Positions 36,107-57,627 of a DNA stretch of 64,000 nt are shown in pieces (the first letter of the stretch is position 1; each line of letters starts with the position of its first letter). The notes beneath the pieces were generated by a model. The model ran no database searches. It was given only the letters and a program-made list of their open reading frames with translations, and was not told where the DNA came from. Made by a program: the position numbers and the translations under genes. The DNA comes from Jaapia argillacea MUCL 33604 (taxonomy: Eukaryota; Basidiomycota; Agaricomycetes; Jaapiales; Jaapiaceae), in assembly GCA_000697665.1 (NCBI GenBank), contig KL197732.1, forward strand, positions 12,154-76,153, given 5' to 3'.

Positions 36107-38096
36107 ATGGCTGCCTCAATATCCTCCTCAAAGTCGGCGTTGAAACCTGAAGATGTCCAAATCGAACGGACAAGTCTCCCGTGTCTGGAGAAGGGAATCA
36201 GCGAGCTTCCAACCAACGTGGACATCAAGAAGTTGATGTGGAAGATCGATCTGCACGTCGTACCGGTCCTTTGCATGCTCTTCCTCCTAGCCTTCCTTGA
36301 TCGGTGAGTTTCCGCCCTTTCTTCAGCCTTTCCTTGTCGCGATAACCTAACAACAATAATCAAACCAGAGTAAACATCTCAAACGCAGCTCTCTTCGGCC
36401 TTCGTGAAGATCTCAACCTCTCAAGTATCCAATACTCTACAGCACTAGTCATCTTCTTCGTCCCATACGTCGTATTCGAAATCCCTTCCAACATCCTCGT
36501 CAAACGTCTCCGCCCACATATCTGGTTATCCCTCTGCATGTTCTTTTTCGGTTTGATAACCACACTCCAAGGTCCGTCTCTTCTCCCTCTCCCTCTCCTC
36601 CCTTCCCTCCCACATCTCCACACTAACTCAAACCCAGGTCTAACAAAAACCTACTCCCAAATCCTCGCCACCCGTTTCTTCCTCGGTGTCTTTGAATCAG
36701 GGATGTTCCCAGCCTGTTTCTTCATCCTCTCTCAATGGTACAGACGAGAAGAATCGCAGAAAAGATTTACGTTCTTTTTTTGCTCGACCAACCTTGCGGG
36801 AGCCTTTGGTGGGTTGTTGGCTAGTGCTATCGGGGAGATGGATGGGGTTAGAGGGTGGAGAGGGTGGAGATGGGTTTTTGTTATTGGTTAGTAGTTGGCA
36901 TCATCTGCGTTCATGCATATCACTTTCGTCTGACCTCACCTTTCACATCCACGTCGGCCCCGCCTTCTATTACTCACGTGAACACACAACAGAGGGCGCA
37001 GCAACCTGTGTAATCTCCATAATCTGGTTCTTCCTCATCCCCGATTTCCCAGAAGCCGCAAAGTTCTTAACAGAAGAAGAGAGGGCGGTCGTTACACAAC
37101 GACTCAGAGATGACGTTGGTCATTCCCAAGAACACCATCGTATCGGGATGAAAGACATCTTGGACGTTTTTCGGGATTGTATGTCCTTACCCCCCCCCCT
37201 CTCCGTCGCCTCGCTGATAGACGTGGTTTGTAGATAAGATCTTCCTCGGGGGGTTCATGTATTTTGGGCTTATCGTACCCGCTTATGGCTACGCCTATTT
37301 CTCGCCGACTATTATCAAGGATTTCGGCTATGGAGGTACGTTCGTCTTAATCATGAAACCGTCTGCCCTGGGGTTGACGGATCGACTCGAACAGCAATCG
37401 AATCGCAATTACGTTCAGTCCCACCCTGGGCGTGCTCCTTCGTCTTCGCAATGATAATAGCATCCATATCCGACCATACCAAACATCGCTACCTCTTCAC
37501 ACTCGGTACTCCCCCTCTCCTCCCCTAACCCTCCTAACTCATTTTTTTGGTTTAGGATCGGCGCTGTTGGGTATGGTAGGCTACATAACCCTGGTATGCG
37601 TACACGACAAAGCGCACGTCCATGTTCGGTATTTTTCGTTGTTCTTGTCGGCTATGGGGGTGTATACTAGTATGCCGATTTGTATTGGGTGGTTTAATAC
37701 GAACCTTGCGGGGCATAGGAGGAGAGCTGTTGGGAGTGCTTGGCAGGTTCGTCTTTTCCGCTCTTCCTTCCTTCCTTCTTTCCTTCCTTGTTCGTTATGA
37801 AACTCAGCTGGAATAATCTAATTCTGACCCTCGCCCTATAGATCGGCTTCGGAAATATGGGAGGAATAATCGCAGCTTACATCTTCCCCTCAAAAGACGG
37901 TCCTCGATATACGAAAGGATACATTATCTGTATCGCTTTCATTTGTCTTTCTATGCTTGCTTCGTTTTCTTATTTGGTTGGTGTCACGGCGGAGAACAGG
38001 AGGAGGGATCAGATGGGAGGGGGGGAGAAGGAGTTGAGTGGGGAGGAAGAAGAGATGTTGGGGGATTTGCATCCTGCATATCGATATATTCTGTGA
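36107..38096 (+). CDS. MFS permease, Dal5/allantoate (anion:cation symporter) type
   Basis: Multi-exon gene for a 12-helix transporter. N-terminal cytosolic part ends ELPTNVDIKKLMWKID, followed by the first helix (VVPVLCMLFLLAFLDR) and the signature NISNAALFGLREDLNLS. Then YSTALVIFFVPYVVFEIPSN, TRFFLGVFESGMFPAC, SQWYRREESQKRFTFF, and RWVFVIEGAATCVISI; in the second half GYAYFSPTIIKDFGY, then AMIIASISDHTKHR, GWFNTNLAGHRRRAVGSA and IGFGNMGGIIAAYIF. The R-E-E-x-x-x-R and N-x-x-G-H-x-x-R signatures fit the Dal5 family, which carries allantoate, nicotinate, thiamine or other organic anions. It ends GDLHPAYRYIL with TGA at 38094-38096. The substrate cannot be told; no catabolic genes lie alongside. 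Confidence 0.93.
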
Positions 38097-38622
38097 GGTT
38101 GTATGTGGGCTATACTTTCAGGGAGGCTTTGGTTTGGGAATGGTTTATTGGTTTTTTTGCCGTGTACAGTACTTATGTTGCGGTTCCTTGCCCGAGGGAT
38201 GTTATGCCTCTAGTTGAGTATCAATTCGCGATCTTGACCTAGCGTGTACGTTAGCCTTCGACTGGGGTAGTCAAACCGAAGATATGAATGATCTCGAAGT
38301 CGAACATGACGAGGAGAGGTTGGGCAAATCTTGAAGCCAGAAGACTGATGGACACCATCCGACGCCCATTAGACACCGTGCAGTCTAATAAGGTCGGATC
38401 TGACTGTTGTCCGAGAAGATTTAGGATTGCCTTCGAAGAGATTCCCCCTCATCCTTTAACTGTCGGATTAACCGAGCCTGAGCATTATACAGGGATATAG
38501 TAAAGAGGGAGCGATTTGATACAGACGTAGAAAAGAAAGTGAGCCGAGGCATTCTACATAAGTAGTCCGTTAATGTCCTCCAATAGATAAATAACGAGTG
38601 ACTTGTAAACTTCCGCAACGGA
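38097..38622. other. 3'-3' intergenic interval
   Basis: Lies between the convergent transporter gene and the minus-strand membrane protein gene. Nothing recognised. Confidence 0.5.
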
Positions 38623-40061
38623 TTATCCAGACCATGGAAGTTCAAACTCTTTCAGCAAACGCATACCCTCCGCCGAAAGGCCCAATACGGCACGTTTCAG
38701 GAACCGAAGCTCATCCGCCGGGGATGCAAGGCCATCGCATGCTTGTTTAATTTCTCCCTAAAGTGGTATAAATCAGAACTTACTCGAGGGAAAAAGCAAG
38801 GAGCACGGACACGGAGTTGTTTTACTGAGAACCTCAGTCGGTCCAATTCAGCGGCCAGGATGGCGCTAGCTTCGTGGGTGCTATCAGCTTGGCGATAGCC
38901 GGCCCAAATCATTTCACTGTCCGCCGCGATCTGCTGTCCCCCAGGCGTAAGATAACGTAACATGAGGCGGACTGGTGGTAGGTGTTGGTTCAGCTCTCTG
39001 TCGATCTCGGTGCCCTCACGCTTGTACGTCGCCATCAAGACCCTCATAGACTGCAGCACAAGTTCGGAGTGATCGCTGGTCGCATTCACGACGAGTCCAA
39101 ATGCATGGACGCGGTCGGTGAACTGGACGACGAATCGGTTCAGGAGGCTATCAATGTCCTTCCAGGATCGCCGTAAACCCCAAGACGACTCCAACTCTTG
39201 TAAACGAGACTCTAGATGAACGAACTGGGTTACGCTGCGTTCAGCCCTACGACAGGATAGGAAATATGGTCACAACCCACCTCGTCAATAAAAAACGACA
39301 TGGTCTGGCCTCCATGTTGGTTTGTGTGCGACAAAGCTGCGGCAAACGTGCGTAACTTGTCACCAATCAGCATCGTCTCACGCCCGAGGATGGGCCGATC
39401 AGGCAGAGCTGCGCTAAGCGTATTCGCTAGCTTGACTATCTCCCTGTAGTGCTTCCAGGCGAGGGAGGTGTGCCGAGCATGAGAGAAGGAGGCGACGCTG
39501 TGTAGGGCAGCCGTGGTAGCAACCGCTCTCTGTCTAATGATGTGTGCCACAGCAGCCAGGTCCGGTGCGGATGGATCAACGGGGTTTACTCTTCCACAAA
39601 TGAGGCCAGAGGTTTGATTGCCGCAAAAAGCCGAGGCGGCGCAGGACAAGGAGGTTGCACAGGTCACTGCTCCAAAGATCGTAGCAGTGGTGTTGCCAAA
39701 CGAGGCCAAAGCCTGTTGCTTGACGGTATTCATGGTGGATGAGATGGCTGACTGGATCCCGAGGACCACAAAATGGCCGCTTAGGATGCAAATGACCATC
39801 ATGGTCAGGTTTGGTAGCAACATTGAAAAGGGTCCGGCCCTCTTTTCAATGTGAATCGCTAGGAAACGACTACAGCGTAAGCCAGCGAGTATGATAGAGG
39901 ACCGAACAACTGTTGAACACACCTGATCTGGATCGACGTGGTCGTGGTCTCTTGACATCACCGTTCTCTCTTGGGGCATCCGGAACCTCGATCAACGAGA
40001 GACTTGACATGTATCTTGGGGAGGAGGCGGACTCAGGAGCGTGATAGTGTCGAATCTGCAT
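38623..40061 (-). CDS. membrane-anchored helical protein, divergent partner of the tandem array
   Basis: Four exons on the minus strand, 39923-40061, 39281-39858, 38811-39224 and 38623-38757 (139, 578, 414 and 135 nt), join in phase to 421 residues. A Pro/Arg-rich cytosolic start (IEVPDAPRENGDVKRPRPRR, about residues 24-43) leads to one strong membrane segment (about 64-86, MMVICILSGHFVVLGIQS) and a Cys-containing stretch (Cys 113, 119, 125, 134). A long helical region of about 280 residues follows (for example FVHLESRLQELESSWG and AELDRLRFSVKQL), ending EFELPWSG. The last exon reads ACDGLASPADELRFLKRAV. No known domain. Head-to-head with array copy 1, 340 bp between starts. Pieces of its first exon recur inside the array, with IELPDVPTPRENRDF still in frame in one of them. 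The last intron starts with the rare donor GTCCGT, as in the array genes. Confidence 0.7.
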
Positions 40062-40401
40062 ACTTTTCCGGCGAGCATTTTAACGTCACAAGTCAGGGCG
40101 TTGCTAGATGATGGCAAAGTTCAGTTCAGGCACAAAAGCCGTTTTGAGAATAATACGGGCGAACTCGATAACAAAAACACGGTCCTGAGAGACAAGGACT
40201 TGTTGGATAACTTGGATTTGTGGGTGTCAGTGGGCGTCTGGCGTCTCTCTGCTGACCCACGCCTGTCAACCGCTTGTTATCGCTGCTTATCCACCTTGTT
40301 CACTTTATACTTCCTCCTTTCAAGTTCTTTTGTCACTCTTTTCGTCGGGTAACCTGATTCACGAGTGGCGGCTTGTTCATATGTAAATCACTCGCCGACT
40401 C
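40062..40401. promoter_or_regulatory. bidirectional promoter of the divergent pair, founder copy
   Basis: The 340 bp between the two start codons must drive both genes. Its sequence recurs before array copies 2, 3 and 4 and once more after copy 4. Shared blocks include tgacccacgcc, the aaccgctta region, and gagtggcgg close to the plus-strand start. Confidence 0.7.
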
Positions 40402-41804
40402 ATGACCCCCAACATGACCCCCTCTTTCTACACCATTTTCGTGTCCTCTTGCTTGGCGGTCAGCCTAACGGCGACTTTTTGGGCTTTGTTTCCTTCACCA
40501 AGCCTCCCCAAAATCATTAGTGGGGATAAGGTCTCGGGGTCGGCCATCCAGGGCGATTGTATCACGGGTACGACGGGCTTACCCTGTCATTTTGAGGCCA
40601 GCGTTGCAAGATTTGTCTCTGAGCAAATAGCCCATTGCTCCAATATCCTCTCCCTCACGCAAGAGTGGGGTGTACCTGCTATAGCTGTCTTCTTCCCACA
40701 CCAGTATGTACTCATTAAATCGTACATTGCTAGATTGTTGATCGTGCGTTAGACGCAACTTTGAGAAACTCCTCTTGGCTCTCCTAGTTGACAACATTCC
40801 AGAGAGTGGACTTCGCCCAGAACCAGTAGACGCTATGGGATGGGAATCATACAAGATGATGCGATCCTTGTATGGCCGTCAATTATACATAATAACCGAC
40901 CTGAGCCAGCCTTCGAGTGCACTGGGTGCGGTGAGTGATCTCATTTGAAATCTCCATTTTCTATCTAGCAACTGATGTTTAGAATACAGTTAAACAAAGC
41001 TATATCTCAGCTCAAGACCATCCAAGAGTTCCGCCAATTGCTCGATCGGGACCCAGATCACCGCGTCCCTTATCGTATTCGCTCCAATGCCATCAAACGA
41101 ATGAAACAGATCTTGTCCTCAGTGACCCAAGATCTCACCAACGATTTGAGAGGTCGATTCTTGGATCACGTCCCGCACCTCGGGACGATCTTTGAACCCG
41201 CAGATCGCACAGCAAATCAAGCAGAGAGCCTTCTGTCGATCATGGCTCAGGACGTTATACTAGTTGACCAGCTCCTCAAAACGCGCCCGTGGCAAGATAG
41301 ATGGGCCATCTGTTGGCTGTACGACGGCCAGGCGTGTCGAGAAGGAAGACAGCTCAGGAAATATCAAGAAGCTCTGAACACCCGAGGCCAACTCCTCAAG
41401 TACTATGCACAGCATCTCCCTACCATAAGTGAAAGTATTTTTTCGGCCAAAGCCTACATGGAATGGTACACCCAGTATATGGTCCGTGACCAACCACCTG
41501 CGAACGATCGCCATACTGACCGACCATGTGTATCTGACAGCCTTCCCATGCAGAAACGCATCATCGAACGCCGCGAAGCACACCACTGGGTACTGCTGAC
41601 GAAGAGCTCGCCGCTCTCGAGGGAGAATTGGAACTCTACATCTTCCGAGCTCAGGAGGCTTTCAAGTACGTGGATCTCAGTCCAATAGACGAGCCAGATG
41701 ATTGGTACAAGAAGGCACTTCTTCCTGGTCGGCGCCGTCCATTATCAACCGGCTTGCCGTTTGAGCCATTCCAGGGAAACCACTCTGACCCTCTTACTTC
41801 GTGA
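40402..41804 (+). CDS. array gene copy 1: single-pass membrane helical protein
   Basis: Exons 40402-40703, 40753-40930, 40990-41481 and 41541-41804 give 411 residues. A short N terminus (MTPNMTPSFY) leads into a signal-anchor helix (about 11-31, SSCLAVSLTATFWALF). Next is a conserved Cys block: GDCITGTTGLPC (Cys 53 and 62) and AHCSNILSLTQEWGVPA (Cys 79). Exon 3 (residues 161-324) is strongly helical: QLKTIQEFRQLLDRD, RMKQILSSVTQDL, then TRPWQDRWAICWLYDGQAC (Cys 268, 276) and GQLLKYYAQHLPTI. Exon 4 holds ADEELAALEGELELYIFRAQ, a Tyr/Pro segment SPIDEPDDWYKKALL, and a basic PGRRRP tail. With one N-terminal anchor and no cleavage site, most of the protein probably faces the lumen or outside, but that is inferred. 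No family known to me. Confidence 0.8.
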
Positions 41805-42470
41805 CTCCTGTGAGTACCATCTTGGTTTTATTGGGTGATGCACTGAGATATCGACATAGATACCTACTATCTCGCGGTACAGCGCCCCGGTAGTTTCGCC
41901 GTATAGGTATCCTTCGGAATGTCTTCGGAGCTGCGACACGTATTGTTAATACGCCCCGATTAACATCTTAGTTGGTGTGGAGGACGGAGCCCAGGCTCTC
42001 CAAGAAGCTGCTCTATTGGAGTATGATCCACGTTGACTATGGGAAGCGACCCCACGCCCTTTCGATATCTTTGGTGGTCATGGTTTTCCTCAATCGCCAT
42101 TCTCTCTCAGGACGTTTGGAAGGTCGATCAACGGAAGATTTGATAGATCTCTTGATGAGGAAGTGGAGGGACGGGATGGATTTGCATAGGACTTTTTCAA
42201 TTGAGCATTTGCCCTCGAAAACAGGGCGCTGCTCGATGATGGCGAGCTTGATTGAGGTGCAGAAACAGTTTTGAGGACAACATGGTCGAATTCGATGACA
42301 ACAGTGGGATTTGTCTGGTTTGTAGGTGCCAGGCGTTCGCGGCGTTTGACCCACGCCCGATCAACCGCTTATTGTGAACACTTGTTCTCGTTGTTCTGTC
42401 TTTTGGCCACATCTATTGTTCAAGTTTTTGAGTGGCGGCTTCATATTGTAACTCACTCTGGCACCAATCA
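41805..42470. repeat. array spacer 1-2: 3' flank, first-exon relic and promoter
   Basis: From about 42072 to 42470 this matches 39935-40401, that is the start of the minus-strand partner gene and the shared promoter. The relic of the minus exon is degraded here. Before 42072 lies the 3' flank shared by the array genes. Confidence 0.75.
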
Positions 42471-43883
42471 ATGACCCCCAAAATGACCCGCTCTTTCTGC
42501 ACCATGTTCTGGTCCTCTTGCTTCGCGTTCAGCCTGATAGCGGCTTTCTGGTCTTTGTTTCCTCTACCAAGCTTCCTCGGAAGAGTCTTTGGGCGTGATA
42601 GCGTCTCGAGTGCGGCCATACAGGGCGGTTGTGTCACGGGCACGACGGGCTTGCCCTGTAACTTCGAGGCCAGCGTCGCACGATTTGTGGCTGAGCAAAT
42701 ATCTCACTGCTCCAATATCCTCTCACTCACGCAAGAGTGGGGCGTTCCTACTATAGCTGTCTTCTTCCCACATCAGTGTGTACTCATTGAATCGTCCATT
42801 ACTTAGGTTTTTCACGTTTTGTTAGAGCTAACTTTCAGGATCTTGTCCGGGATCTCATGCTTTACAACAGTCCAGAGAGTGGCCTTTGCCCAAAAGCAGT
42901 ACATTCTATGGGATTTGAAGCATTCATGATGACTCAAACCTTGTATGTCCGTCAATTGCACATGGTAGCCGACCTGAGCAAGCCCTCAATAGCACTGGGA
43001 GCGGTAAGTGATCCTTCTTTTGAAATCTCCAGTTTTTTTGCTGGAAACTGATTATTTTACAATCCAGTTAAAATCCGCCGTCTCTCAGCTCAAGACTGTC
43101 CAAGAGTTCCGCCAATTGCTCGATCGAGACCCAGATCACCGCGTCCCTTATCGTATTCGCTCCAACGCCGTCAAACGAATGAAACAGATCTTGTCCTCAG
43201 TGACCCAAGACCTCACTAACGATTTGAGAAATCAATTCTTGAATCACATCCACCACCTCGGGACCGTCTTTGAAACCGCAGACTGCATAGCAAATCAAGC
43301 AGAGAGCCTTCTCTCTATCATGGATCAGGACATCATATCAGTGGACCTGCTCCTCAAAACACGTCCGTGGCAAGATAGGTGGGCCATTTGCTGGCTGTAC
43401 ATCGGCCAAGTTTGTCGGGAGAGAAGACAGAGTAGGAAATATCAAGAAGCTCTGGTCACCAAAGGCCAACTCCTCAAGTACTATGCGGAGCACCTCTCTA
43501 CCATAACTGAAAGCATCTTTTCTGCTAAAGCCTACACGGAATGGTATACCCAGTATATGGTCCGTGATGAATTACATTGCTAACGATCACGACGCTGACC
43601 GACCATGTGGACCTAGCAGCCTTCTTACGCAGAAACACATCATCGAATACCGCGAAGCACGCCACTGGGCAGCGCTGACGAAGAAATCGCCGCTCTTGAG
43701 GGAGAATTGGAACTCTACATCTTCCGAGCTCAGGAGGCCTTCAAGTACGTGGATCTAAGCCCAATGGAGGAGCCGGATGATTGGTACAAGAAGGCACTCC
43801 CTCCTGGTCGGCGTCGTCCGTCGTCGACCGGCTTGCCTTTTACGCCATTCCAGGGAAACTACTCTGACCCTCTTGCTTCGTGA
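42471..43883 (+). CDS. array gene copy 2: single-pass membrane helical protein
   Basis: Exons 42471-42775, 42826-43003, 43068-43559 and 43620-43883 give about 412 residues. Exons 2, 3 and 4 have exactly the lengths of copy 1 (178, 492, 264 nt). Starts MTPKMTRSFCTMFWSS; the Cys block is GGCVTGTTGLPCNFEASVAR then ISHCSNILSLTQEWG. Copy 2 is the most different in exons 2 and 3 (for example NQFLNHIHHLGTVFETAD and LYIGQVCRERRQ, where the copy 1 Asp-Gly pair before the Cys is Ile-Gly). The end SDPLAS and the RRRPSSTGLPF region are kept. An alternative acceptor three bases upstream of exon 4 would add one Gln. No stop or frameshift, so likely functional. Confidence 0.8.
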
Positions 43884-44547
43884 TTCGTGTGAGTACCCTC
43901 ATAGTTTATTATACGATATGCTAAGACATCGCGACAGATACATAACTCCCGATATCGCACTGCGGTTGTTTCACCATATACGATCCAGAACTGCTTCGTA
44001 GCTGAGAGGCATGTTACTCCATACGCCCCGTATCGCAGTGGGCCCGAAGGACGGAAACCAGGCTCTCCAAGAAGCTAGTCCATTGGAGTATGATCCACGT
44101 TGACTATGGGAAGTGACTGCATGTCCTTCGATACCTTTGGTCGTGGTTTTCTGAAATCACGGTTCTCTCTCGGAGTCGGGACGTCTGGAAGTTCGATTAA
44201 CGGAGGGATTGATATATGTCTTGATGAGGAAGTGGAGGGACAGGATGAATCTGCACTGTACTTTTTCAATCGACCCCGAATATCAGGGCGCTGCTCGATG
44301 ATGGCTGAGTTGATGGAGGTGCAAAAATGGTCTCGAGTACGATATGGACGAATTTGATGATTTGTTGTGTTTGTGGGCGTCAGCCTTGGGCGTTTCGCGG
44401 CGTCTGGCCCACGCCCGTCAAGCGATTATTATGAACGCTTGTTCCTGTTGTCTTTGCATCGCGTTTGTTCTGTCTTTCGGTCAGATCAATTGTTCGAGTG
44501 CTTGAGTGGCGGTTTATTCATGTCTAATTCACTCACCGACCCCCAAC
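43884..44547. repeat. array spacer 2-3 with an open first-exon relic
   Basis: Between about 44138 and 44547 it matches the founder divergent region. The minus-strand relic (44075-44269) is still an open frame reading SRHISIPPLIELPDVPT then PRENRDFRKPRPK, aligned with the partner gene's MSSLSLIEVPDAPRENGDV and KRPRPR. The remaining exons of the partner gene are absent. Confidence 0.75.
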
Positions 44548-45945
44548 ATGACTCGCTCTTTCTACGACATTTTCTGGTCCTCTTGCTTGGCGTTCACCCT
44601 GTTAGCAGCTTTCTGGGCCCTTTTTCCTCCGCCAAGCTTCCCTAGAACCATCAGTAACGATGATGTCTCGAGTTCGGGGGTCCAGGGCGGTTGTGTCGCG
44701 GGCACAACGGGCTTACCCTGCAACTTCGAGGCTAGCGTTGCGAGATTTGTGTTCGAGCAAATATCCCACTGCTCCAATATACTCTCCCTCTCGCAGGAGT
44801 GGGGTGTTCCTGCTATAGCTGTCTTCTTCCCACATCAGTGAGTACTCATTGAACCTTCCAGTGCTCAAATTGTTCATACGCGTGTTAGACCCGGCTTTCA
44901 AGATCTTCTCCGGGATCTCATCATTCACAACATTCCAGAGAGCGGGCTTCGCCCAGAACCAGTAAAATTGATGGGACGTGAAGCATACAATATGATGCGA
45001 AGCTTGTATCGCCTACAATCAGAAATGATATCAGACCTAAGTGAACCTACGGGAGCGCTGGGTGCGGTGAGTGATCCTTCTTTTGAAATGTCGATTTTTC
45101 GCTGGCAGCTGATTATTTTACGATCCAGTTAAAAGCCGCTGTTTCTCAGCTCAAGACTGTCCAAGAGTTTCGCCAGTTGCTTGATCGGGACGCAGATCAT
45201 CATGTCCCTTATCGTATCCGGTTCAACGCTATTCAACAGATGAAAAAAATCTTGTCCTCATTGGCCCAAGATCTCACTGCGGATCTAAGGGACCGATTCC
45301 TGGATCACATCCCCCAACTTGGGACAACCTTCGAACCTGCAGATCGCGCAGCAAATCAAGCAGAGAGCCTTGTCTCCATCATGGATCGGGACATTATATT
45401 AGTTGACCAGCTCCTCAAAACGCGTCCGTGGCAAGATAGGTGGGCCATATGTTGGCTGTACGACGGCCAAGCGTGTCAAGAAGGAAGCCAGATCAGGAAA
45501 TATCAAGATGCTCTAAACACGAGAGGCCAACTCCTTAAGTATTATGCGGAGCACCTCCCCAACATTCGTGAAAGTATCTTCTCCGCCAAAACCTATGAAG
45601 AGTGGTACACGCGGCATATGGTTCGTGGCTATCTACTTTACTCGAGATGAATAGGCTGACTGACCATGTATTACTTGACAGCCTTCTTACGCAGAAAGAC
45701 ATCATCGAATGCCGCGAAGCACGCCATTGGGCAGCGCTGACGAAGAACTCGCCGCTCTTGAGGGGGAATTAGAGCTCTACATCTTCCGAGCTCAGGAGGC
45801 TTTCAAGTACGTGGATCTCAGCCCAATAGACGAGCCGGATGATTGGTACAAGAAGGCACTTCTTCCTGGTCGGCGCCGTCCACTGTCAACCGGCTTGCCG
45901 TTTGAGCCATTCCAGGGAAACCAATCTGACCCTCTTGCTTCGTGA
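44548..45945 (+). CDS. array gene copy 3: single-pass membrane helical protein
   Basis: Exons 44548-44837, 44889-45066, 45129-45620 and 45682-45945 give about 407 residues with the same exon plan. The first ATG of the other copies is lost (acc-ccc-aac before the second ATG), so translation should begin at MTRSFYDIFWSS, four codons further in. The membrane helix is FWSSCLAFTLLAAFWALF. The Cys block GGCVAGTTGLPCNFE and ISHCSNILSLSQEWG is intact, as are WQDRWAICWLYDGQACQEG and the exon 4 acidic helix ADEELAALEGELELY. Exon 3 has its own changes (DRDADHHVPYRIRFNA, QQMKKILSSLAQDLTADL). The last intron starts GTTCGT, one base off the GTCCGT of the other copies. No disabling change. Confidence 0.8.
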
Positions 45946-46645
45946 CTCCCGTGAGTACCATCCTGCTTTTACCGGGTGTTACACTAAGATATAGATATAG
46001 ACTACTATCTCGCGATACAGCACCCCCGTAGTTTCGCCGTATAGGTATCCTTCGGAACGTCTTCGAAGCTGCGACACTTATCGCTAGTACGTTCGGATTA
46101 ACATCGTAGTTGGCGTGAAGGACGGAGCCCAGTCTCTCCAAGAAGCTGGTCTGGAGTATGATCCATGTTGCCAGTGACTACTATGGGAAGTGACTACGTG
46201 CCCTTTCGATATCTTTGGCGGTCATGGTTTTCCCCAATCACCGTCCTCTCTCAGGACGTTTGGAAGGTCGATCAACGGAAGGTTTGACATATCTCTTGAT
46301 GAGGATGATGTGGAGGACTCAACGGGGTGACTCTGCGTAGTACCTTTCAATTGAGCATTGTGACCTCGAAAATCTGGCCGCTTCTCGATGGTTGAGCTTT
46401 ATTGTGGTGTAAAAAAAACGGGATTGAGAATGATATGGACGAACTCGATAACAACAGGGTTTGTGTCAATGGGCGTCAGTCGACGCGTCTGACCCACGCC
46501 CGTCAACCTCCGTCAACTGCTTATTGTGAACACTTGTCCACCCTGTTCCCGAGCCCTTTGTATCTGCAACTCGTTGTTTTGTCCTTCGGTCAGACCAACT
46601 GTTCTTGAGTGGCGGCTTGTTCATATATAACTCACTCACCTCCCC
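45946..46645. repeat. array spacer 3-4: 3' flank, first-exon relic and promoter
   Basis: The 3' flank after copy 3 closely resembles that after copy 1 (block tttcgccgtataggtatcct). From about 46216 the founder divergent region is recognisable, with a small insertion in the relic (gaggatgatgtgg). Confidence 0.75.
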
Positions 46646-48049
46646 ATGACCCCCAACATAAACCGCTTTTTCATTTTCTGGTCCTCTTGCCTAGCACTCT
46701 GCCTGATAGCGACTTTCTGGGCGTTGTTTCCTCCACCAAGCTTCCTCGGAATAATCAGTAGTGAAAGTGTCTCCAGTTTGGCCACCGAGGGCGGTTGTAT
46801 CACGGGCACAACGGGCTTGCCCTGTAACTTCGAGGCCAGCGTCGCACGATTTGTGACTGAGCAAATATCTCACTGCTCCAATATCCTCTCGCTCACGCAA
46901 GAGTGGGGCGTTCCTGCTATAGCTGTCTTCTTCCCACATCAGTATGTACTACTCGTTGAGTCGTACATTGCTTAGAGTGTTCATCATGTGTTAGACGCAA
47001 CTTTCAGAAACTGCTCTTGGCTCTCATGGTTGACAGCATTCCAGATAGTGCGCTTCGCCGAGAACCAGTAGACGCTATGGGACGCGAATCATACAAGATG
47101 ATGCGAACCCTGTATGGCCGTCAATTAGATGTAATAACCGACCTGAGCCAGCCTTCAAGAGCACTGGGTACGGTGAGTGATCCTGCTTTTGAGATCTCCA
47201 TTTTTTCGCTGACACCTGATTGTTTACAATCCAGTTAAAAAAAGCTGTATCTCAGCTCAAAACTGTCCAAGAGTTTCGCCAATTGCTCGATCGGGACCCA
47301 GATCACCGTGTCCCGTATCGTATTCGCTCCAACGCCATCAACCGAATGAAACAGATCTTGTCCTCAGTGACTCAAGATCTCACCAGCGATTTGATTGGTC
47401 GATTCTTGGATCACGCCCCGCACCTCGGGACAATCTTTGAACCCGCAGATCGCACAGCAAATCAAGCAGAGAGCCTTCTGTCGATCATGGCTCAGGACGT
47501 TATACTAGTTGACCAGCTCCTCGAAACGCGTCCGTGGCAAGACAGGTGGGCCATCTGTTGGCTGTACGACGGCCATGCGTGTCGAGAAGGAAGACAGCTC
47601 AGGAAATATCAAGAAGCTCTGAACACCCAAGGCCAACTCCTCAAGTACTACGCACAGCATCTCCCTACCATAAGTGAAAGTATTTTCTCCGCCAAAGCCT
47701 ACATGGAATGGTACACTCAGTATATGGTCCGTGACCAACCACCTGCGAACGATCGTCATGCTGATAGACCATGTGTATCTCATAGCCTTCCCATGCAGAA
47801 ACGCATCATCGAACGCCGCGAAGCACACCACTGGGTACCGCTGACGAGGAACTCGCCGCTCTCGAGGGAGAATTGGAACTCTACATCTTCCGAGCTCAGG
47901 AGGCTTTCAAGTATGTGGATCTCAGTCCAATAGACGAGCCGGATGATTGGTATAAGAAGGCACTTCTTCCTGGTCGGCGCCGTCCATTTTCAACCGGCTT
48001 GCCGTTTGAACCATTCCAGGGAAACCACTCTGACCGTCTTGCTCCATGA
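46646..48049 (+). CDS. array gene copy 4: single-pass membrane helical protein
   Basis: Exons 46646-46941, 46995-47172, 47235-47726 and 47786-48049 give about 409 residues. Starts MTPNINRFFIFWSSCLALC, a slightly shortened N terminus compared with copy 1. Exons 2-4 keep 178, 492 and 264 nt. By eye exon 3 differs from copy 1 at only about ten of 164 residues (for example LLETRPWQDRW for LLKTRPWQDRW, and DGHAC for DGQAC), far fewer than copy 2 or 3. The Cys block GGCITGTTGLPCNFE and the exon 4 acidic helix are intact. It ends NHSDRLAP, where the others end SDPLAS or SDPLTS. Probably functional, and either a recent duplicate of copy 1 or homogenised with it. Confidence 0.8.
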
Positions 48050-48610
48050 TTCCTGTGAATACCCTCCTACTTTACTGTACGATATGCAACGACATCGTGA
48101 CAGATACATATCTCCTGATATAGCACTGCGGTAGTTCCACCATATACGATCCTCCAGAACCGCTTCGTAGCTGCGAGGCCTGTTACTACATACGCCCCGA
48201 TCAGTATCACAGTTGGCCCGAAGGACGGAAACCAAGCTCTTCAACAAGCTGTTCTATTGGAGTATGATCCACGTTGACTATGGGAAGTGACCGCATGTCC
48301 TTCGATATCTTGGGGGGTTATGGTTTCCTGAAATCATCGTTCTCTCTCTCTCTCGCTCGATCAACGGAAGGTTTGATATATCTCTCGACGAGGAAGTGGA
48401 GGGACGGGATGAATCTGCATCGTAATTCTTCCATCGAGCATTTTGACCTCGAAAATCAGGGCACTGCTCGATGATGGCTGAGCTTGTTTGAGGTGCAAAC
48501 ACGGTTTTGAGTACGATATGGACGAACTCGATGATAACAGGGCCGTCCTTGGAGGCAGGATTTGTCGGGTTTGTGAGCGTCAGGCGGCGTCTGACCCACG
48601 CCCGTCACTG
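48050..48610. repeat. fifth array unit, promoter without gene
   Basis: After the 3' flank of copy 4, the founder divergent region reappears from about 48305 (relic of the minus first exon with a short tc repeat, then the promoter blocks). It runs to tgacccacgcccgtcac near 48595-48611, after which no array gene follows. The unit is cut about 100 bp before the expected start codon. Confidence 0.75.
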
Positions 48611-49785
48611 AGGATGCCCTCGAGCGCATGGTGTAATTACTTTCCGTGCGTGAGCTTTGAAGGTGTTAATGAGGGGAGCAGAGGTCGGATGAAGGCATCT
48701 CTGAGATAAGGATAGGACTTCGGGAAAAGTATGATTTGGTTGAATGAGATCGGCTTCATGACATTCCATTACGAGGTACACCACAAAATCCTACCAGAGT
48801 TGTGAAAACAACCGCGACCCGATACAGAATAAGTATAAAGACAACACACCGAGAAGAAACCCAATGTCTAGAAGACGACTGGTGTATGAACGAGACGAAC
48901 CAGTCCATCGACAGGCTCCGACTCGGACTCCGTAACTTGTGAATGCACTGGCACCCAGGACGCTCCGCGCAAAAGACGCTGTCGACCTTGACTTCCTCAG
49001 CGAAAGGAGCATGACCATAATTCACCGGTGGTAGATGGAAGAGTATGGGCAAAAAGCGAAAGCGACAATATACATAGTGCCCAGTACTAATAGTCACTTG
49101 GGAAGTTCAACTTGTTCAAGTCGGAGGCGACGGTGGCAGGAACAGAAATTCAGGTTTGGCCAAGTACGCATCAGAGACGACGACCGTCTGCAGTCACAGC
49201 TAAATTCAGAACGATAGACCGTTCGGATTTCTTTCACTCTCAGAAGCCTCTCGGTTCAGTCACCGTTTGTGGCAAGTCGAACGCGCAGTGCCTTGACTCC
49301 ACCCAGCGCCACAATTCGTGTTAGAATCCCGGAAATCAATATAATTCCCCCCCTTTTCAACGGACGTGCCTGAGTCGAGTAAATTCGCTGTGGTCTATCG
49401 TTGTGAATTTAGCTGCAACGGAGAACACTAGCTCTATTCTTGGCGTCAGCGAAGGAAGCAAGATTTATCAACTTTCCAGAGGCGTGGTGGCAGGAACTGA
49501 ACAAGGGGCGTCGTGAGACAATTTCTCGAACTTATGTACCCGTTCTGCCCGACGAGGGGGAAAGAAATTTCGAGATCCGAGGCTATACGCTAAATACCCT
49601 CATTGACATCAGGCAAGTACGACAATAAATCATTCTCCAACTCCAACAAGCCGAACGAGTTCACCAACGAGAAAGATAACTATTTATCAACACCAACCCC
49701 ATCCTCCATCCTCAAAATTCATGGCGAACCAACAGCCCATTAAATCCAATCCCACATCCACATCCACCACCGCAAGACCTAACCA
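48611..49785. other. array right flank, no gene recognised
   Basis: A minus-strand frame 48756-49097 (113 codons) ends in hydrophobic stretches (RCVVFILILYRVAVVF), and a plus-strand piece 49440-49615 reads EARFINFPEAWWQELNKGRR before a possible donor. Neither is recognised and neither has a supported exon chain. The last 150 bases hold the 3' end of the F-box gene on the minus strand. Confidence 0.35.
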
Positions 49786-56305: not shown

Positions 56306-57627
56306 ATGGCAGCCAATAACGGGATCAAGATGGCTGAGTATCGTCAGCTTGGAAAGTGTGGTTTACGGGTTTCCGTTCCTATCGTAAGTTATTACCTCAT
56401 TTTTCGAATGGCTCGTTCACTCACTCTATGTCGTTTCATCCAGCTCGGAGCTATGAGTTTCGGTACAAAGAAATGGGCGGTAAGAATATGACTATGAAAT
56501 AGCATAGATGATCGAGCTTATCACATCTTAATAGCCATGGGTCATCGAAGAGGACGAAGCTTTACCTCTCCTCAAGGCTGCTTGGGATCATGGGGTTACT
56601 ACCATTGACACCGCGAACGTTTACTCTAACGGCGAGTCTGAAAAAATCATCGCCAAATTCATCGAAACGGTAGGTTCTCGTCTCCCTCGTATCTTCGCTT
56701 CATCCCTTCGAGCTCAAATTATGGCCCTCAGTACAACATCCCCCGTAGCGAACTCATAATCGCCACCAAATGCATCGGACTCGTTTCTAGGGACCCCACA
56801 ATCCGTACAGGTCTCCGTCCCGATCTTGCAAACCTTCGGGAATACGTGAACCAAGGTGGCCTTTCGCGCGGTGCGATCTTCAAACAAGTCGATGCGTCCC
56901 TTGAACGTCTCAGGACATCCTACATCGACCTTCTTCAGATTCACAGGTTTGATCCGAAAGTACCGGTCGAGGAGACGATGAAGGCGTTGCATGATGTGGT
57001 GGAGAGTGGGAAGGTTAGGTATATTGGGGCTAGTTCTATGCGGTGTTGGCAGTTTGCGTTGATGAATGAGGTTGCGGAGAAGAATGGGTGGACGAAATTT
57101 GTGAGCATGCAGGATGAATACTCGTTGCTGTATCGTGAGGATGTGAGTTTCTTTCCCCCTGCACTCCTCTCCATTTCGATGTTGAGGCATATTTTGTTTT
57201 TCAGGAACGAGAAATGCACGCATATTGTAACTACAATGGGATCGGTATCATCCCTTGGGCACCCCTAGCAGCAGGAGCGCTCGCCCGACCTTTCGGCACC
57301 CAAACCACTCGCTCATCACTATCAGTAGCCCAGTACAAAGATTCCGATAAACTGATCATCTCGCGCGTTGATGAGCTTGCAAAGAAGAAGGGTTGTACGA
57401 TGGGCCAGATTGCGTTGGCTTGGACTCAAACGAAAGTGGCGAGTCCTATTGTTGGGTGTAGTTCTGCTGAGAGGTTGGAAGAGGCTATCGTGCAAGGCGT
57501 AGAGCTCACGAAGGAGGAGATTGTGTACCTTGAGGAACCGTGCGTTTGTCGATTTGGGTTGCGATGTCGATGCTGATTTCCCTTGACTCTCAGGTACGAA
57601 CCCAAACCAATTCGTGGCCATGCATGA
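56306..57627 (+). CDS. aldo-keto reductase (NADPH-dependent, AKR TIM barrel)
   Basis: Six to seven exons with matching phases from ATG at 56306 to TGA at 57625-57627. Protein order: [63 protein letters not shown] (Asp and Tyr of the tetrad), [12 protein letters not shown] (Lys), [18 protein letters not shown] (His), [52 protein letters not shown], and the cofactor-binding end [17 protein letters not shown] with [10 protein letters not shown]. It ends [10 protein letters not shown]. The catalytic Asp-Tyr-Lys-His set is complete. Closest in style to fungal AKR9 or YakC-like enzymes that reduce aldehydes or ketones; the substrate is unknown. Its decayed paralogue lies at 14713-16018. Confidence 0.93.

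Follow-up and report, generated by a model that had tools for sequence, protein, structure and literature searches.

A tandem gene array in Jaapia argillacea whose spacers carry the start of a divergent neighbouring gene

Results

Gene content of the array

We analysed a 64,000-nucleotide stretch of contig KL197732.1 of Jaapia argillacea MUCL 33604, hereafter the window. It contains four related genes arranged head-to-tail on the plus strand, the first of which lies head-to-head with a minus-strand gene that we call the partner (Table 1). All gene models are predictions built from splice-like ends and open frames. The introns are short (49-64 nt) with GT-AG ends. A four-exon frame of 407-412 aa with matching introns is intact in all four plus copies, and the order of the units is constant, with spacings of 2078, 2061 and 2106 nt between members of the exon-3 family. 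Plus copy 3 does not have the first ATG of the other copies (44520-44550) and uses the second, with the frame kept. The gene models agree with the initial annotation in placing one intact partner beside copy 1, as against four intact plus genes.

The start codons of the partner and plus copy 1 are 391 bp apart, and the region between them is presumed to be a bidirectional promoter. Divergently paired genes are described as neighbours on opposite strands whose starts are separated by less than 1 kb (PMC2670823); the present pair, with opposite strands and 391 bp between its predicted start codons, may be of this kind.

A simple hydropathy scan finds one hydrophobic stretch near the N terminus of each of the five proteins, beginning near residue 50 in the partner. 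The partner and plus genes are also of similar size and have three introns each, and we considered whether they might be paralogs. This idea was not supported: the best blastp match between them has an E-value of 3.2, and when plus exon 3 and partner exon 2, the one exon pair compared by profile, were aligned with hhalign, the probability was 0.1 percent.

Searches for relatives used collections without eukaryotic genomes. Pfam gave no match at E<=10 for the three proteins submitted, namely the partner, plus copy 1 and plus copy 3, and plus copy 1 has just three matches among PDB sequences, at E 0.49-0.8. Plasmid records gave no match to plus copy 1, the viral_contigs collection no relative of its exon 3 or of partner exon 2, and the prokaryote-only genome_contigs collection no relative of plus exon 3. 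Modelling the structure of two single exons gave poor results (mean pLDDT 43.5 and 40.2). Within the window, tblastn with the five proteins found no copy outside the array below E 0.10, and neither Rfam (gathering scores) nor ARAGORN reported anything. Among 20 window ORFs scanned, the only Pfam matches at E<=0.01 are fragments matching MFS_1 (36346-36891, E 1.3e-21) and aldo/keto reductase (56642-57268, E 3.2e-27).

Table 1. Positions of the predicted genes, the repeated block and its spacer copies in the window
Feature	Position	Strand	Description
Partner gene	38623..40010	minus	four exons, predicted 404 aa; model from splice-like ends and open frame
Partner exons	40010-39923, 39858-39281, 39224-38811, 38757-38623	minus	introns 64, 56, 53 nt
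Partner exon 1 part within repeated unit	39938..40010	minus	73 of 88 nt; left border of unit
Intergenic region between the two divergent start codons	40011..40401		391 bp; position from gene models
Plus gene copy 1	40402..41804	plus	411 aa; exons 40402-40703, 40753-40930, 40990-41481, 41541-41804
Spacer copy P1	42074..42470		decayed partner stub, minus reading LSNLPLIDLPNVLRENGD*GKP*P, and promoter copy
Plus gene copy 2	42471..43883	plus	four exons, 412 aa
Spacer copy P2	44138..44547		stub open in partner frame (IELPDVPTPRENRDFRKPRPK), ATG absent, and promoter copy
Plus gene copy 3	44548..45945	plus	four exons, 407 aa
Spacer copy P3	46220..46645		ATG kept, stop in partner frame (MSNLPLIDLPNVLREDGDWGKP*PP), and promoter copy
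Plus gene copy 4	46646..48049	plus	four exons, 409 aa
Spacer copy P4 (fifth, truncated)	48316..48607		frame-shifted stub and left part of promoter block

The repeated block ends inside partner exon 1

The block at 39938-40401 (464 nt), consisting of the first 73 nt of the minus-strand partner and the 391-bp intergenic region, recurs upstream of plus copies 2, 3 and 4, and its first ~330 nt recur after copy 4. We refer to the block beside the partner as P0. A blastn search with 38000-40401 against 40402-49400 (E<=0.01) gave four matches with 60-68% identity, pairing 39938-40174 with 42074-42301 (E 3e-24), 39939-40399 with 44138-44540 (E 2e-19), 39940-40396 with 46220-46640 (E 4e-25) and 39940-40240 with 48316-48593 (E 1e-30). 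The match starts (39938, 39939, 39940 and 39940) fall within three bases of each other, all inside partner exon 1, which is 88 nt long (40010-39923).

When three sub-blocks were compared with the four spacers, using 500 dinucleotide-preserving shuffles for each of the 12 comparisons, no shuffle reached the observed score in 11 of them. The exception is 40261-40401 against the spacer after copy 4 (171 of 500 shuffles), and the last recurrence is therefore limited to the left ~330 nt. The initial annotation had reported that 39935-40401 recurs in all four places; the blastn matches and shuffles uphold this before copies 2, 3 and 4, and only for that left part after copy 4.

A profile built from the four spacers aligns to 39938-40397 (E 1e-51) with no extension leftward. 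The 80 nt at 39858-39937 are ordinary in their similarity to 3' flanks 1-3 (444, 326 and 212 of 500 shuffles) and score high against flank 4 (3 of 500). For the longer segment 39700-39937 (238 nt) the corresponding figures for the four flanks are 420, 491, 253 and 43 of 500, and for partner intron 1 alone 127, 60, 177 and 23 of 500. Little similarity thus appears to be shared with the 3' flanks left of 39938, flank 4 being the one result against a clean border. From the match starts, the shuffle tests and the limit of the profile, we place the border 73 nt inside the partner coding sequence, rather than the ~130 bp initially proposed. Similarity among the five block copies does go beyond the promoter, into 73 nt of partner exon 1, and the later copies do hold the promoter and plus gene with only a stub of the partner, apparently sharing one border in exon 1.

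Sequence conservation within the block

Similarity to a coding exon could be incidental if the block had been kept only as a regulatory element. This would sit well with a 16-bp imperfect palindrome, TGRCCCACGCCYGTCA, present in four of the five spacer copies (40253-40268, 44405-44420, 46490-46505 and 48592-48607) and interrupted by one inserted base in the fifth, which precedes plus gene 2. The palindrome is possibly a regulator site; it occurs nowhere else in the window at <=2 mismatches, with 0.14 occurrences expected for a pattern that was itself drawn from these copies. The similarity, however, runs across the block and not in islands, and the longest run conserved in all five copies is 8 nt, a length reached in 161 of 5000 column shuffles. 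The block moreover starts inside a coding exon, at almost the same base each time. We regard a purely regulatory origin of the likeness as highly improbable.

Decay of the partner stubs

The partner frame is broken by a stop or frameshift in three of the four stubs (P1, P3 and P4), and the ATG is kept in one (P3). In the partner frame the P2 stub reads ISIPPLIELPDVPTPRENRDFRKPRPKV, and the minus-strand relic IELPDVPTPRENRDF of the initial annotation proved to be real. The P4 stub starts ISNLPLIE before its frame shift, and no plus gene follows it. At one arginine codon, P0 and P2 have CGA, P1 and P3 TGA, and P4 TAA.

In a tblastn search whose search space was the four spacers only, partner residues 1-28 were found in spacers 1, 2 and 3 (E 2e-4, 2e-5 and 3e-4). 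Spacer 4 instead has its best match at residues 121-196 (21% over 80 aa, E 0.002), and we attribute this to chance, since the DNA concerned aligns to the promoter block. Stub homology is seen at the DNA level in all four spacers and at the protein level in three. The protein similarity of the P2 stub exceeds neutral simulation at a fraction of 0.044 of 3000, as one of four uncorrected tests, and that of P1, P3 and P4 does not (0.15, 0.22 and 0.44); two wrong-frame controls gave 0.11-0.82. As read from these comparisons, the stub pattern fits unconstrained drift and gives no independent proof of past coding.

These searches also bear on the idea that duplication involved whole gene pairs, with deletion of the surplus partners afterwards. 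Such a history would lead to the same end state if one deletion came before amplification, whereas a separate deletion in each copy is unlikely since one border appears common to four spacers. There is, in addition, no convincing trace of partner exons 2-4 in the spacers: residues 30-404 alone gave a best match of E 0.002 (21% over 80 aa, in promoter-derived P4 DNA) and a next best of E 1.1, and the full-length partner gave one further match, at E 0.050, that does not include exon 1. We consider duplication of whole pairs quite improbable.

Direction of the rearrangement

P0 stands furthest from the rest of the five spacer copies, with 66-72% identity to the others as against 77-85% among P1-P4; in the promoter part of a whole-unit alignment the values are 63-67% and 70-78%, respectively. 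P0 also has the longest branch (0.29) in a FastTree phylogeny of the spacer copies (supports 0.69 and 0.80). This does not decide the direction of history, which could in principle be reversed: the array with its spacers would be the older structure, and a rearrangement at 39938 would have brought other DNA to its left end. The partner would then be a chimera whose promoter, start codon and first 24 codons derive from array DNA. Two breaks in an older array would be expected to leave ends at different phases, as found here, and both the position of the border within a coding exon and the little coding constraint in the stubs favour such a history; it stays compatible with the joint because the joint is seen only where similarity to P0 ends. 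Indeed, as judged from the alignments, the spacer junction is recognizable only as that end of similarity. On the other side, a nearly open partner frame can be reconstructed for the ancestor of the stubs, with the ATG in P0 and P3 and CGA in P0 and P2, although hand parsimony on this ancestor is close to a tie. The reversed order also has against it that partial duplications are more common, and we judge it unlikely. The corollary that the partner, a predicted membrane protein gene, is a newcomer that acquired its start from an array spacer seems to us slightly more doubtful still. If true, the promoter of one unit would now be driving a chimeric gene on the other strand.

Divergence and selection among the plus genes

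The four plus proteins are 76-88% identical in pairwise comparison, and 268 of the 411 positions of copy 1 are invariant across them, with 36 percent of residues 102-160 invariant as against 84 percent of residues 325-411. Omega is 0.23-0.36 in all six pairs of copies (Nei-Gojobori, 405 shared codons). By exon, it is 0.25-0.65 in exon 1, 0.60-0.98 in exon 2, 0.15-0.25 in exon 3 and 0.10-0.28 in exon 4, and exon 2 (40753-40930 and its counterparts in copies 2-4) has the fastest protein divergence among the plus exons. On these estimates all the plus copies seem to be functional, exon 2 containing a segment that changes quickly, and the combination of low omega in all copies with rapid exon 2 divergence fits several working, diverging copies. 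The initial annotation suggested that the plus gene was favoured in dosage or diversity; selection for dosage is at most a putative factor. Positive selection is not demonstrated, as no omega estimate exceeds 1.

Mosaic units and the ends of the array

The plus-gene units are mosaics. There are 119 two-against-two sites among the four units, of which 57 support pairing copy 1 with copy 4, 49 pairing it with copy 3 and 13 pairing it with copy 2. These informative sites fall into 36 runs as against 71.1 +- 5.0 after shuffling, and none of 5000 shuffles gave as few. Between intron 1 and the early part of exon 4, most sites favour 1+4 (42 of 48, made up of 11/13, no sites in intron 2, 3/5, 13/15 and 15/15), although the closest pairs are different ones in windows near intron 2 and the beginning of exon 3 (40918-41152). 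The 3' flank pairs copy 1 with 3 and copy 2 with 4 at 31 of its 33 sites, and in the promoter part the groupings are mixed (11, 5 and 4 sites). The alternating spacers and the conflicting gene body suggest a two-unit exchange and then gene conversion, in an order that we infer.

The left end of the array coincides with the start of a stub, and the right end lies within a promoter copy, close to the last base of TGACCCACGCCCGTCA at 48607 (a limit placed by eye), so that the two ends are at different phases of the unit. Because a simple duplication would end in phase, we assume that most of a fifth unit was deleted, and the original right flank appears to have been lost together with this truncated unit.

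Discussion

We think it probable that the array arose by an old tandem duplication of the promoter and plus gene whose left end fell within the partner, followed by amplification, conversion and loss of most of a fifth unit. The starting point would have been a head-to-head gene pair sharing an intergenic promoter of ~390 bp. By tandem duplication, DNA downstream of the plus gene would have been joined to partner exon 1 at 73 nt from its start, giving a unit of ~2.07 kb that comprises partner stub, promoter, plus gene and 3' flank. Copy number would then have been raised by unequal exchange, further exchange or gene conversion would have made the copies mosaic, and a deletion would have removed most of a fifth unit. 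The partner would have remained single because each unit contains no more than its stub, and the plus copies would have stayed under purifying selection while exon 2 diverged. The homology of the spacers, the near-identical left limit of that homology, the intact plus frames, the decayed stubs and the mosaicism are features of the DNA as it stands, and we infer the direction of events, the mechanism of joining, the function of the promoter and any selection for extra copies. Four points count against this account: the additional truncation that it needs because the array ends are out of phase, a spacer junction marked only by the end of similarity to P0, the want of clear coding constraint in the stub codons, and the high similarity of flank 4 to the DNA left of 39938 (3 of 500 shuffles), which may blur the border.

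The closest precedent is the CUP1 array of Saccharomyces cerevisiae, which the present locus appears to match in kind. CUP1 repeats are ~1.2-2.0 kb long with one gene each (PMC4232551). The Type 1 repeat (1998 bp) carries YHR054C, a sequence identical to the last 1 kb of the neighbouring gene RSC30, of which a complete copy lies at one end of the array. Repeat number is altered there by unequal crossovers, and the authors argue for non-homologous end joining (PMC4232551). The two loci share a fragment of a neighbour within the repeats, at CUP1 those of Type 1, and the whole neighbour at one end. The CUP1 fragment, however, is the 3' end of its neighbour, whereas here it is the 5' end together with the shared intergenic region; CUP1 also has a known selected trait (copper); and, unlike in the CUP1 array, the four proteins here are only 76-88% identical.

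Overall the locus is an ordinary outcome of tandem duplication, ordinary in kind, and by itself changes no general understanding. Its break, stubs and mosaic copies nevertheless preserve a legible trace of the way in which such an array may begin and expand. With relatives for comparison, the duplication could be dated against stub decay, and the locus could be used to test if sharing a promoter allows one member of a divergent pair to be amplified alone.
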